Assembly (NCBI GenBank): GCA_013042125.1 | Contig: JABDQS010000203.1 | Span: forward strand, 1 to 10,929 | Origin: Eudoraea sp. | Lineage (GTDB): Bacteria > Bacteroidota > Bacteroidia > Flavobacteriales > Flavobacteriaceae | Reading direction: 5' to 3' | Length of the DNA stretch: 10,929 nucleotides | Part shown: piece after piece, positions 409 to 5,313 of the stretch | Numbering within the stretch: the first letter of the stretch is position 1 | Layout of the letters: each line of letters opens with the position of its first letter | Translations under genes and position numbers: made by a program | Notes under the pieces: model-generated | The model's input: only the letters and a program-made list of their open reading frames with translations | Databases searched by the model: none | What the model was told of the DNA's origin: nothing

Positions 409-846
409 ATGAAGCGTTTATTGCTCACCGGATACTTCTTGTTTCTATTGCTACCTGCCACGTCCCAGGAATGGCAAACAGATCTTACAACGGCCCAAAA
501 ACTGGCTTCGGTGCATGATCTGCCTATTGTCCTGGTCTTTCAGGGATCGGACTGGTGTGCACCTTGCATAAAATTAGATCGTGAGATTTGGAGTACTGAC
601 AAATTTAAGGCATATGCCCGGCAACATTTTGTGATGCTAAAGGCAGATTTTCCCAAAAAGAAAGCGAACGCTCTCACAGTAGAACAACAAGAAAAAAATA
701 ACGCACTAGCCGAAAAGTACAATCAAAACGGTTATTTTCCTTATGTAGTGGTTATGAATAAAGATGGGGAGGTTTTAGGGACAACAAGCTATAAAAAAAT
801 GGATCCTACTGAGTATATTTCACTTCTGGAATCCTTTAAATCCTGA
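409..846 (+). CDS. Exported thioredoxin-family protein
   Basis: A 145-residue protein with a signal peptide (residues 1-19, hydrophobic core LLLTGYFLFLLL, ending near ATSQ) and one thioredoxin fold. The active site is WCAPC, with redox cysteines Cys50 and Cys53, inside GSDWCAPCIKLDREIW. This sequence is typical of the Thioredoxin_7-like group rather than of classical TrxA. The expected cis-proline region is near residue 111 (NGYFPYVVVMNKDG, residues 107-120). The protein should act in the periplasm as a thiol reductase or oxidoreductase. The ATG follows an A-rich stretch and no Shine-Dalgarno is seen, which is normal for this phylum. It lies 7 bases upstream of apbE and is the first gene of the apbE-DUF4266-DUF3570 operon, so its client is probably a cysteine protein of that set. 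The DUF4266 lipoprotein is the obvious candidate by inference. Confidence 0.88.
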   Translation: MKRLLLTGYFLFLLLPATSQEWQTDLTTAQKLASVHDLPIVLVFQGSDWCAPCIKLDREIWSTDKFKAYARQHFVMLKADFPKKKANALTVEQQEKNNALAEKYNQNGYFPYVVVMNKDGEVLGTTSYKKMDPTEYISLLESFKS

Positions 847-853
847 TCGGAGG

Positions 854-1837
854 ATGTATAGAATACTTTTTTTCTTAATTGTTTTAGGTGTTTCAAACCC
901 TCTTAGCTCACAAGAGGCCTATACCCAAACCCTGAAACTAATGGGCAGTAAGTTTGATATCACCGTAGTGGCCAATGATGAAACTGTAGGTGCCGGATAT
1001 ATTGATCTGGCTGTGAATGAGATCCGTAGAATTGAAAAACTTATTTCTTCCTGGGATCCTTATTCTGAGACCTCCAGAATTAACCAGAATGCCGGCGTTC
1101 AACCGGTACAGGTTTCTACGGAATTATTCGATCTGATAAACAGAGCTCTTGAGATCTCTAAAATAACGGATGGGGCTTTTGACATAAGTTATGCTTCCAT
1201 GGATAAGATCTGGATATTTGATGGGAGTATGACTCAAATGCCAACAAAGGAAGAAATACACAACTCTGTTGAAAAAGTAGGTTACCAGCATATTCTGATG
1301 GACAAGGATCAAAAAACCGTATTCCTGGCAAAAAAAGGGATGAAAATAGGTTTTGGGGGTATAGGTAAAGGCTATGCAGCAGACAAAGCAAAAGCGCTTC
1401 TTATAGATCAGGGAGTAATTGCCGGGATCATCAATGCTTCAGGGGATATGAATACCTGGGGCAAACAACCCAATGGTGAAGAATGGCAGGTGGCCATTAC
1501 CAATCCTTTGAACCAGCATAAGGTCTTTGCAATACTTCCCATAAAAGAAGGTGCGGTGGTAACCTCCGGGAACTATGAAAAATATGTCAGTTTCAACGGC
1601 ACTCGCTATAGCCATATCATAGATCCAAGAAGCGGTTATCCTTCCTCAGGGATCATAAGCGCTACGGTTTTTGCTCCCAGCGCAGAATTAGCGGATGCCC
1701 TTGCCACAGCTATTTTTGTCATGGGTACCGAAGTGGGGATAGACCGGATCAATCAACTGCCGCAGATAGAATGTATTATAATAGATGATAAAGGAGGAAT
1801 AATTACCTCAGAGCATATAAAAATCCAAAAGACATGA
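854..1837 (+). CDS. apbE: FAD:protein FMN transferase (ApbE family)
   Basis: ApbE enzymes use FAD and a divalent metal to attach FMN through a phosphoester bond to a Ser or Thr of a target protein outside the cytoplasm. This 327-residue protein has the family length and motifs in order: MGSKFDITV (30-38), the FAD-contacting GGIGKGYAADKA (168-179), NASGDMNTWG (194-203), TSGNYEKY (237-244), SHIIDPRSGYP (253-263) and the metal-site segment ELADALATA (278-286) with Asp281. No key residue appears lost. The first 20 residues form a signal peptide ending LSSQ. There is no lipobox cysteine, unlike many proteobacterial ApbE lipoproteins, so it should be soluble in the periplasm. The only in-frame ATG before the catalytic region is at 854. 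Its stop overlaps the next start (ATGA, 1834-1837), implying translational coupling. No RnfG, NqrC or other known flavinylation target lies in the window, so the client must be a neighbour or be encoded elsewhere. Confidence 0.95.
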   Translation: MYRILFFLIVLGVSNPLSSQEAYTQTLKLMGSKFDITVVANDETVGAGYIDLAVNEIRRIEKLISSWDPYSETSRINQNAGVQPVQVSTELFDLINRALEISKITDGAFDISYASMDKIWIFDGSMTQMPTKEEIHNSVEKVGYQHILMDKDQKTVFLAKKGMKIGFGGIGKGYAADKAKALLIDQGVIAGIINASGDMNTWGKQPNGEEWQVAITNPLNQHKVFAILPIKEGAVVTSGNYEKYVSFNGTRYSHIIDPRSGYPSSGIISATVFAPSAELADALATAIFVMGTEVGIDRINQLPQIECIIIDDKGGIITSEHIKIQKT

Positions 1838-2046
1838 TAAAAAAAGTGATACTGTTCCCTGTCTTCTTACTATTATTTAGTTCCTGCGTTGTAGTAAAGG
1901 AATACGAAAAGGTATACCTGAATGATCCGGACATGGTTTTGGCAGATAGGAAGTGCGATCGTAACCTAACCATCTTTCATTCGTACCGGGAAGCATCTGC
2001 AGGTGCCAATGGTGGCAAAACAGGTGGGGGTTGTGGCTGTAATTAA
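1834..2046 (+). CDS. DUF4266 small lipoprotein with Gly/Cys tail
   Basis: A 70-residue protein. A lipoprotein signal peptide ends in the lipobox LFSSC, so Cys18 should be lipidated and the mature part would have 53 residues. The mature part contains LNDPDM (29-34) and SYREASAGANGG (50-61), and ends in GGGCGCN. This layout is characteristic of DUF4266, a family of unknown function. After the lipidated residue there are three cysteines, Cys41, Cys67 and Cys69, plus His49. The terminal C-x-C could bind a metal, form a disulfide or be modified. The ATG overlaps the apbE stop by four bases, so the two are probably translated in a coupled way. The DUF3570 gene begins 9 bases after its stop. From memory, DUF4266 genes commonly travel with apbE, thioredoxin-like and DUF3570 genes, which suggests they act together. 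Family assignment is firm; function is not known. Confidence 0.88.
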   Translation: MIKKVILFPVFLLLFSSCVVVKEYEKVYLNDPDMVLADRKCDRNLTIFHSYREASAGANGGKTGGGCGCN

Positions 2047-2055
2047 TTAAATGGA

Positions 2056-3372
2056 ATGAAGCCGAAAAGACTATATTTTATTCTCATAGGTTCACTTGTA
2101 TTAGTCTCTCTTAATACTCTGGAGGCTCAGGAAACCTATAAAAAAAGGGTTCTTGAAGTAGCAGAAGTTGCCTTCCTCAGCAGCTACTATACACAAGATG
2201 GCAGCAACGCAGCCGTAAGCGGTGGTATTGGAACAGAGGATCTGACAGATGCTACCGGAACCTTTGTGGTATCTATCCCCTTGAATGACGATGATGTCTT
2301 AACCGTAGATGCGGGAATTTCTGCGTATACCTCGGCTAGTTCGAGCAATGTTAACCCATTTGATGGTTCTGGTCCTGCAGATGCATTTCAGGCCTCCTCA
2401 GGTGCTTCCGGTAATGATATATGGAGCAATCTAACCCTGGGGTATAGCCATAACTCGGACGACCGTAATACTATTTGGACAGCAAAACTTGCTGTGGCCA
2501 CTGAATACGATTATTTCTCGCTTGGTCTTGGTGGTAGTTTTACGCGGCTCTTCAATGAAAAAAATACAGAATTGGGGATCAACACCAATATTTACCTCGA
2601 CAAATGGAACGCTATATACCCAACAGAATTACGCCCTTTTATATCCGGAGGTGATGGAATCAACGATCCCTTCTTTTCAGTGAATACAATAAGTGGAAAT
2701 CCAAATTACGATCCGTCGTTCACTGCTTTTGACCAAGAGAACCGAAATTCATATTCCCTGGGGGTAAACCTTTCTCAGATCCTCAGCAAGAAATTACAGG
2801 GCGCCCTGATAGCCGATCTGGTATTACAAGAAGGATTACTTTCTACTCCCTTTCAGCGTGTTTATTTTGGTGATGTGGCAGATTCCTTTATCCAAAACTT
2901 TCAATTGGCCGATGATATTGAACGGCTTCCGGAAACAAGATGGAAAGTGGCCTTAGGAGGCCGACTTAATTACTATCTGAATGAAATTGTGGTTATTCGC
3001 AGCTACTACAGATATTATTCTGATGACTGGGGTATTCGTTCACACACTGCCAACCTCGAAATACCTGTTAAGATCTCTGACTCTTTTACACTGTACCCTT
3101 CCTACCGCTATTATACGCAAACCGCGGCTGATTATTTTGCCGCTTATGAAGAAAATCTTTCTTCTGATATCTTTTATACATCAGATTATGACCTTTCAGA
3201 ATACAACGCCAACCAGTTTGGAATGGGAATCACTTATACCGATATCTTTACGAATCTGAGGATCTGGAAAATAGGCCTTAAGCAGATCGATCTGAAATTT
3301 GATCACTACGAGCGCAATTCCGGCTTAGCAGCAAATATTGCCTCTCTGTCATTTACCTTCCTGATGGATTGA
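2056..3372 (+). CDS. DUF3570 protein, probable outer-membrane beta-barrel
   Basis: A 438-residue exported protein; the signal peptide runs to about residue 24 (NTLEA). After a conserved N-terminal stretch (YKKRVLEVAEVAFLSSYYTQDG, residues 28-49, near the start of the mature protein), the rest is rich in alternating aromatic/polar strands separated by turns. Examples are VVIRSYYRYYSDDW (312-325) and FTLYPSYRYYTQ (344-355), as expected of an outer-membrane beta-barrel. Residues 83-121 form a Ser/Ala/Gly-rich segment with TSASSS (92-97) and SSGAS (114-118); SGAS fits the [S/T]-G-A-[S/T] core that ApbE modifies, although the usual upstream Asp is not at its canonical spacing. It is the last gene of the operon and is followed by 70 bases before the converging rny gene, with no clear hairpin terminator. 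Family call is confident, barrel topology is inferred, and the role is unknown. Confidence 0.85.
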   Translation: MKPKRLYFILIGSLVLVSLNTLEAQETYKKRVLEVAEVAFLSSYYTQDGSNAAVSGGIGTEDLTDATGTFVVSIPLNDDDVLTVDAGISAYTSASSSNVNPFDGSGPADAFQASSGASGNDIWSNLTLGYSHNSDDRNTIWTAKLAVATEYDYFSLGLGGSFTRLFNEKNTELGINTNIYLDKWNAIYPTELRPFISGGDGINDPFFSVNTISGNPNYDPSFTAFDQENRNSYSLGVNLSQILSKKLQGALIADLVLQEGLLSTPFQRVYFGDVADSFIQNFQLADDIERLPETRWKVALGGRLNYYLNEIVVIRSYYRYYSDDWGIRSHTANLEIPVKISDSFTLYPSYRYYTQTAADYFAAYEENLSSDIFYTSDYDLSEYNANQFGMGITYTDIFTNLRIWKIGLKQIDLKFDHYERNSGLAANIASLSFTFLMD

Positions 3373-5161: not shown

Positions 5162-5313
5162 ATGGAAGTTTTGTACAAACTCCTATGAACAGGTTTAGGG
5201 CTAACAGACTGCTCAAGGATCCTTTACGAGAAGGCCTGCTTTTACAATCTAAACTCACCCTTTTTAAACTAATTAATGTTGAGTTTGTCAAAAATTAAAT
5301 ACCAATGTGGGCA
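5146..5313 (-). ncRNA. ssrS: 6S RNA (Bacteroidetes/Flavo-1 type)
   Basis: 6S RNA mimics an open promoter and binds the RNA polymerase holoenzyme. No plausible protein is encoded between zapA and rny. On the minus strand the segment begins with CCCACATTG (5303-5311) and ends with its exact complement CAATGTGGG (5153-5161), followed by seven U (5146-5152), giving an RNA of about 166 bases closed end to end. A second perfect helix pairs ACAAACTC (5281-5288) with GAGTTTGT (5175-5182). A third pairs GTTTAG (5249-5254) with CTAAAC (5193-5198). The apex is a hairpin, CAGGCCTT / AAGG-AT-CCTTG (5214-5238). Between helices two and three lies a large asymmetric bubble, 26 bases on one side and 10 on the other, as 6S RNA requires. 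The position beside zapA matches the well-known zapA-ssrS neighbourhood of proteobacteria and, from memory, that of flavobacteria. The exact 5' end is uncertain because no consensus promoter is visible directly upstream. Confidence 0.82.

Follow-up and report, generated by a model that had tools for sequence, protein, structure and literature searches.

What is the function of a gene cassette that encodes a thioredoxin-like protein, the flavin transferase ApbE and two proteins of the families DUF4266 and DUF3570? The question is raised by a stretch of 10,929 nucleotides from Eudoraea sp. (Flavobacteriaceae), hereafter the window, which is the whole of contig JABDQS010000203.1 (C174) of a 2.24 Mb genome (GCA_013042125.1) in 344 contigs, 74% complete, an incomplete assembly in which absences mean little. 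We tentatively propose that the cassette specifies a thiol-driven outer-membrane flavoprotein (a flavin reductase), perhaps for metals, a reading that we hold to be quite possible and for which we infer both the direction of electron flow and the acceptor.

Neither the cluster nor its client is new, both having been published in 2021. According to Méheust et al. 2021 (PMC8238504), who described the ApbE/DUF3570/thioredoxin/DUF4266 flavinylation cluster, the ApbE of Chlorobium luteolum flavinylates the DUF3570 protein of that species at two [S/T]GA[S/T] sites; this bears out the preliminary description of the window, made from its DNA letters, by which the client of ApbE was probably within the set. 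In the same text, clusters with DsbD typically hold ApbE, DUF3570 (227), a thioredoxin-like protein (183) and DUF4266 (221), 316 clusters hold all four genes without DsbD, and the function is called uncertain, 25 clusters with VIT1 hinting at iron. In the window, likewise, all four families are present and encoded together, DUF3570 has ApbE-type motifs and DUF4266 ends in a C-terminal CXC; unlike the published cluster, site 1 of DUF3570 lacks the glycine of the motif (site 2, S-G-A-S, fits), and DsbD is missing among the window open reading frames (ORFs) searched by Pfam, hence we file the cassette under the DsbD-less form. What is added here is a model of the barrel that puts the flavin sites in one of its outer loops, a glycine-free site in the Bacteroidia-type proteins, the exact co-occurrence of DUF3570 and DUF4266, and lineage-specific neighbours. 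In the main text of PMC8238504 the words "Rieske" and "ferritin" are absent and "outer membrane" occurs once, on TonB receptors, while "barrel", "thioredoxin" and "DsbD" are absent from the main texts of two later ApbE papers (PMC12052999, PMC11334425). Literature searches, whose coverage leaves out many subscription papers and preprints, found no publication on a DUF3570 barrel, and among papers from 2021 on, the combination of ApbE, barrel, outer membrane and flavin mononucleotide (FMN) returned only a copper-stress transcriptome paper (PMC8836040).

The four-gene cassette and the client of ApbE

The order thioredoxin–ApbE–DUF4266–DUF3570 proposed earlier for positions 409-3372 of the plus strand, with gaps of 7, -4 and 9 bases, is confirmed. 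All four proteins score above the curated Pfam cut-offs in a Pfam search of the window ORFs, and their N-termini, judged by eye, look like signal peptides. The features of the cassette are:

409..846, plus strand: exported thioredoxin-like protein, 145 aa (Pfam Thioredoxin_7, 46 bits; active site CAPC)
556..567, plus strand: CAPC active site of the thioredoxin, the sole two cysteines of the protein
854..1837, plus strand: exported ApbE, FAD:protein FMN transferase, 327 aa (Pfam ApbE, 288.8 bits)
1834..2046, plus strand: DUF4266 small lipoprotein, 70 aa (Pfam, 67.6 bits; 4-base overlap with apbE)
2023..2043, plus strand: C-terminal GGGCGCN of DUF4266, a glycine-rich tail with a Cys-Gly-Cys pair (from the sequence)
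2056..3372, plus strand: DUF3570, 438 aa, no cysteine (Pfam, 118.5 bits; 16-stranded outer-membrane beta-barrel by model)
2329..2340, plus strand: predicted FMN site 1 of DUF3570, residues 92-95 T-S-A-S, acceptor Ser95 (Gly-to-Ser variant of [ST]GA[ST])
2398..2409, plus strand: predicted FMN site 2 of DUF3570, residues 115-118 S-G-A-S, acceptor Ser118 (canonical core)

The closest solved structure to the thioredoxin by sequence is 2ju5, deposited as a thioredoxin disulfide isomerase, and its top NCBIfam match is the DsbH model (80.6 bits, under the cut-off of 190). The SGNYEKY...HIIDPRSGYP stretch of ApbE aligns with solved FMN transferases, and no lipobox was seen in ApbE by eye. DUF4266 has four cysteines, including the lipobox cysteine (residue 18, by eye) and the terminal CGC pair.

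That no standard ApbE client is present holds for the window, but not for the genome. Two ApbE proteins are encoded in the latter, the cassette copy and one on contig C91, which also bears the sole FMN_bind match of the genome and ORFs that, by reading, resemble NqrB, NqrD, NqrE and NqrF; the nqr cluster thus has its own ApbE. Clients elsewhere that account for flavinylation, together with frequent DUF3570/DUF4266 pairs lacking ApbE, were not what we found: the nqr genes adjoin an ApbE of their own, and ApbE is missing from 1 of the 54 genomes with the pair (see below). An NqrC-like ORF of this genome (L154 1096-1842) reads D-A-L-A-G-A-T at the expected flavin site, with Ala replacing the Ser/Thr of the motif.

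Co-occurrence and gene order in relatives

In a survey of 198 genomes of the phylum, among them that of the window, profile matches to DUF3570 were found in 54, to DUF4266 in 54 and to ApbE in 131. The DUF3570 and DUF4266 sets are the identical 54 genomes, 53 of them with ApbE; the lone genome without an ApbE match (G181) is 97% complete in about 100 contigs. The hypergeometric value of the identical sets, 6e-50, ignores kinship, 31 of the 54 genomes being from one family (f16). We take f16 to be the green sulfur bacteria, the group where flavinylation was shown, because the FMO antenna protein was present in all six f16 genomes tested; it was also found in G005, and not in G055, G138 or G184. 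Several f16 genomes (e.g. L071, L072) have at least two DUF3570 paralogues and one ApbE, with site 2 missing in some paralogues.

Gene order was compared in the best 80 of 577 confirmed candidate loci (named relatives), in 20 loci taken from 18 further genomes that belong to the window's class or to a nearer group, and in 20 deeper loci, with counts from greedy gene calls that miss and shadow genes, uncalled genes not being treated as losses. The four genes are consecutive in the window order in 62/80, 11/20 and 0/20 of these, respectively, and the arrangement is more frequent than chance. Eleven of the 20 deeper loci have ApbE downstream of DUF3570, and a DsbD gene is present in the fetched stretch of 9 of the 16 f16 loci (L057-L072). 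The 18 non-consecutive named loci comprise contig edges (L100, L109), an inserted Rieske gene (L105), shadow calls (L080, where apbE is masked, and L096), two loci with DUF4266 uncalled (L130, L140), seven with the thioredoxin uncalled (L110, L118, L122, L132, L134, L137, L141) and four apbE-less Aquimarina loci, in which there is no room for apbE between the thioredoxin and DUF4266 genes. Loss of apbE paired with loss of the flavin motifs was not observed in these loci. A ferritin gene lies upstream of three of the apbE-less cassettes (L125, L131, L136), the stretch of the fourth (L139) starting near the thioredoxin. In L053, L054 and L056 a protein with a start that by eye resembles a twin-arginine translocation signal is encoded between DUF3570 and ApbE; it has a NusG_II domain (tested for L053).

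DUF3570 is predicted to be an outer-membrane barrel

The earlier proposal of an outer-membrane-associated flavoprotein system agrees with the predicted structure of the window DUF3570, a 16-stranded outer-membrane barrel with a predicted local distance difference test (pLDDT) score of 86.8. Sixteen strands recur in a fused model made from an overlapping alignment, in which DUF4266 and DUF3570 were folded as a single chain, a residue standing in for the in-frame stop. A signal sequence (by eye), an even number of strands and both termini on the same side in the model are all as expected of such barrels. With Foldseek the model matches solved barrels along the full chain, the rows listed being barrels with template modelling (TM, query) scores of 0.32-0.44; no flavoprotein was recognised among the 50 structural-match rows listed, which is not evidence of absence. 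A PDB sequence search with the DUF3570 profile gave nothing at E <= 1, and one with DUF4266 gave a single match at E 0.75. The DUF3570 model shares its fold with the PgaA and PelB barrels (4y25 and 9h80) over 252 and 269 aligned residues, although at 15% and 13% identity. PgaA and PelB are polysaccharide export barrels and are not known to carry a flavin. Both predicted flavin sites would lie in loop L2, which is extracellular by the general topology rule.

Conservation was read from the top 60 residues of the Bacteroidia-type part of the alignment, the parity of hydrophobic residues deciding which strand positions face lumen or lipid (strands 1, 8, 14 and 15 being ambiguous, and strand 12 extended by hand to 341). 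The top 60 are distributed as 26/151 in extracellular loops, 30/109 lumen-facing, 4/109 lipid-facing and 0/33 in periplasmic turns, with mean conservation of 2.89, 3.38, 2.60 and 2.72, respectively; L1, L3, L5, L6 and L7 score 3.2-3.8 and L2 scores 3.0. Lumen-facing positions are thus clearly conserved, and among them those of the outer half score above those of the inner half (3.72 vs 3.05; one-sided p 4e-7); of the 36 in the outer third, 20 belong to the top 60. Conservation thus peaks in the upper lumen, where it fits a chamber near the outer mouth of the modelled barrel, and invariant charged residues occupy lumen positions.

A predicted glycine-free flavin site in Bacteroidia-type proteins

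The flavin sites were read from an alignment of 362 DUF3570 proteins: 22 deep sequences, the window, and 339 Bacteroidia-type sequences (119 + 120 database proteins, 20 + 80 loci). Site 1 is [ST]GA[ST] in 19 and [ST]SA[ST] in 3 of the deep sequences, and [ST]SAS in 336 and ASAS in 3 of the Bacteroidia-type ones, so that glycine occurs there in 0/340 when the window is included. Site 2 of the Bacteroidia-type sequences is [ST]GA[ST] in 199, [ST]SA[ST] in 128 and other in 12. The better-conserved Bacteroidia-type site therefore departs from the published motif, being [STA]SAS and never with Gly. The motif recognised by ApbE is given as D-x-x-[S/T]-G-A-[S/T], in which replacing Gly by Ala leaves about 50% of the flavinylation and the Asp can be lost with little effect, according to a review (PMC12052999). 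At neither site of the window DUF3570 is there an Asp three residues ahead of the Ser/Thr. In five named loci with apbE (L133, L145, L146, L149, L150) site 2 is damaged (SGES or SGQS) and site 1 intact; in L045, L046, L048 and L051, where apbE is also present, site 2 deviates and site 1 is ASAS or TSAS, the alignment being less certain there. We predict from these sequences that the cassette ApbE would accept an xSAS site.

Thiol relay and the DUF4266 tail

Past residue 30, DUF3570 has no cysteine in 340 of the 362 proteins, one in 17 and more in 5. Since most DUF3570 proteins lack cysteine, a thiol relay must generally end before the barrel, and thiol electrons would go directly to FMN, the one redox group known for it. 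The candidate for the last thiol carrier is the DUF4266 tail: the CGCN ending is found in 120/120 listed homologues (of 4650) and in 78/78 copies called in the named loci, and C18 and the CGC tail are invariant in an 11-row alignment, some deeper copies ending in CGCG or CGCAK. Redox potentials of CXC pairs, as cited in PMC3173608, are -167 mV for a CGC peptide and -200 mV for a thioredoxin CGC mutant. A role of the tail like that of ribosomally synthesised and post-translationally modified peptides was dropped, no maturation enzyme being seen among the four genes.

The closest functional parallel of the tail is the arm of the high-Mr (relative molecular mass) thioredoxin reductase, where a flexible C-terminal Cys pair links a flavin system and thioredoxin, as described in PMC11508645. 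The cassette differs in that its arm is a separate lipoprotein, its flavin would be a covalent FMN on a barrel, and the proposed direction is from thioredoxin to flavin with no reduced nicotinamide adenine dinucleotide phosphate (NADPH); the resemblance is in working, not in kinship. We favour electron flow towards the barrel. The single DsbD_TM match in the window's genome, a 667-aa protein on contig C65 whose C-terminus resembles a thioredoxin domain (NCBIfam DsbD 128.6 bits, under the cut-off of 330), is a likely source of reductant.

The Erv/Ero1 enzymes of eukaryotes, in which a flavin stands next to a mobile Cys pair, make disulfides. A flavin beside a mobile Cys pair and a thioredoxin resembles that arrangement, and FMN would be the terminal group in a barrel that mostly lacks cysteine; the set could thus pass electrons from thiols through FMN to oxygen and make envelope disulfides. 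However, DsbD supplies reductant, the thioredoxin has its best NCBIfam match, under the cut-off, in the reductase DsbH, and the family and its link with DsbD are found in green sulfur bacteria, which are strict anaerobes, so that oxygen cannot be the general acceptor. We regard such a thiol oxidase as very improbable.

Outer-membrane porin-cytochrome conduits of the MtrCAB type place redox cofactors at or across a barrel, as proposed for the cassette. Unlike these, the four window proteins have no CxxCH haem motif and the cofactor would be FMN.

Neighbouring genes

Neighbours were counted over 121 loci, that is the window, the 40 genome loci and the 80 named loci (8 kb for the latter). VIT1 lies near the cassette in 9 loci, always on the same strand, one of the copies being broken. 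Seven loci, each of them from Aquimarina, have a ferritin gene, and 11 have DsbD. RND pumps occur in 19 loci and their adaptors in 18, many from Maribacter. A small Rieske protein, encoded no more than about 3.1 kb from DUF3570, is found in 9 loci, always on the strand of the cassette. The one RND pair tested is CusA/CzcA (TIGR00914) with a periplasmic adaptor, and the three Rieske proteins read all keep CxH...CxxH. The broken VIT1 copy (G021 C26:277751-278020), with an internal TGA, lies upstream of its cassette. In the 18 class-or-nearer genomes VIT1 is within 10 kb of DUF3570 in 8, at about one copy per genome and none in three; the random-placement probability of 9e-15 is too small, several genomes sharing a genus. 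Within the same distance are a Rieske gene in 5/18, at about two copies per genome, and CusA/CzcA in 5/18. In Maribacter ulvicola (L105) VIT1 lies upstream of Trx-Rieske-ApbE-DUF4266-DUF3570-DsbD, all on one strand. In G182 a Rieske domain adjoins another ApbE (C6:646432-648085), on a contig other than that of the DUF3570 gene. The one VIT1 of the window's genome is on contig C86.

These VIT1, ferritin, pump and adaptor genes, the invariant charged residues in the lumen and the 25 VIT1 clusters in the main text of PMC8238504 are consistent with a reductive metal porin, in which the Cys-Gly-Cys of DUF4266 would bind iron or copper, the barrel admit the metal, FMN reduce it, and thioredoxin and DsbD keep the Cys pair reduced. 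We consider this unlikely, since such neighbours are missing from the window and from the majority of the 80 named relatives, and the tail, in which the candidate metal site is two cysteines, also fits a plain dithiol shuttle.

The Rieske genes bear on another alternative, that of two separate jobs: thioredoxin and DUF4266 would handle disulfides in the envelope, and the FMN barrel would receive its electrons from a Rieske protein, a c-type cytochrome or external soluble flavins. Besides the strand and intact ligands of the Rieske proteins, the cytochrome c genes that precede DUF3570 in L060 and the undocked DUF4266 of the fused model agree with it. Rieske is, however, missing from 112/121 loci, and the complete overlap of DUF3570 and DUF4266, each in 54 of 198 genomes, suggests a shared job; a division of labour is improbable on this balance.

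Other features of the window

A scan for sigma-70 promoters and terminators gave counts close to those of shuffles. The TANNTTTG sequence, which we take to be the Bacteroidetes -7 element, has 15 matches in the window vs 10.5 expected, none of them in 292-409. A 6S-Flavo RNA (RF01685; 105.5 bits vs a gathering cut-off of 85) is found at 5177-5284 on the minus strand, between zapA and the RNase Y gene.

Proposed mechanism

For the thiol-driven flavoprotein we propose the following sequence of events. Periplasmic ApbE would attach FMN to loop L2 of DUF3570, as the motif and homology suggest, presumably before insertion of the barrel, which by the model and the topology rule would hold FMN at its extracellular mouth or in the upper lumen. 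Electrons may pass from DsbD to the CAPC thioredoxin and on to the DUF4266 lipoprotein, whose flexible C-terminal Cys-Gly-Cys could be a swinging dithiol arm carrying them towards the flavin. The arm would then reduce FMN, since the barrel lacks a cysteine that could extend the thiol relay. From reduced FMN the electrons would go to an acceptor, either on the cell surface or within the barrel; a metal, for instance ferric iron, is the likeliest candidate, and it is the neighbouring genes only that suggest a metal. A bolder version is a haem-free conduit across the outer membrane, in which the CGC tail would reach up through the barrel to reduce covalent FMN at the extracellular mouth, cytoplasmic reducing power would come to the surface by thiols and flavins alone, and the Bacteroidia ApbE would accept the glycine-free xSAS; taken as a whole, this version is doubtful.

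Several observations weigh against the proposal. The flavin sites are in low-confidence parts of the model (mean pLDDT 63 for residues 91-100, below 50 for 115-119), and the word "extracellular" rests on a general topology rule. Docking of DUF4266 on the barrel was not seen in the fused model, in which the tail is below pLDDT 50. Loop L4 is variable (score 2.2), and special conservation of the outer loops as a class was rejected, 17% of their residues being in the top 60 vs a base rate of 15%. The four Aquimarina cassettes L125, L131, L136 and L139 lack a local apbE and keep both flavin sites. CusA/CzcA is common, with about two above the cut-off per genome, and its matches clump by genus; of the 80 named relatives, 2 have VIT1 nearby and 2 have DsbD; and VIT1, CusA/CzcA, Rieske, ferritin and DsbD are all missing from the window contig. 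Finally, we infer the presence of FMN, electron transfer and its direction in the cassette, and the crossing from the periplasm to the outside.

Significance

The cluster is common in the sampled genomes of the phylum (54/198), and the only paper found leaves its function uncertain. With a modelled barrel, an invariant xSAS site and a client free of cysteine, this "unknown function" becomes specifically testable. If flavins truly sit outside on an outer-membrane barrel, this would be electron export without haem, powered by thiol chemistry.

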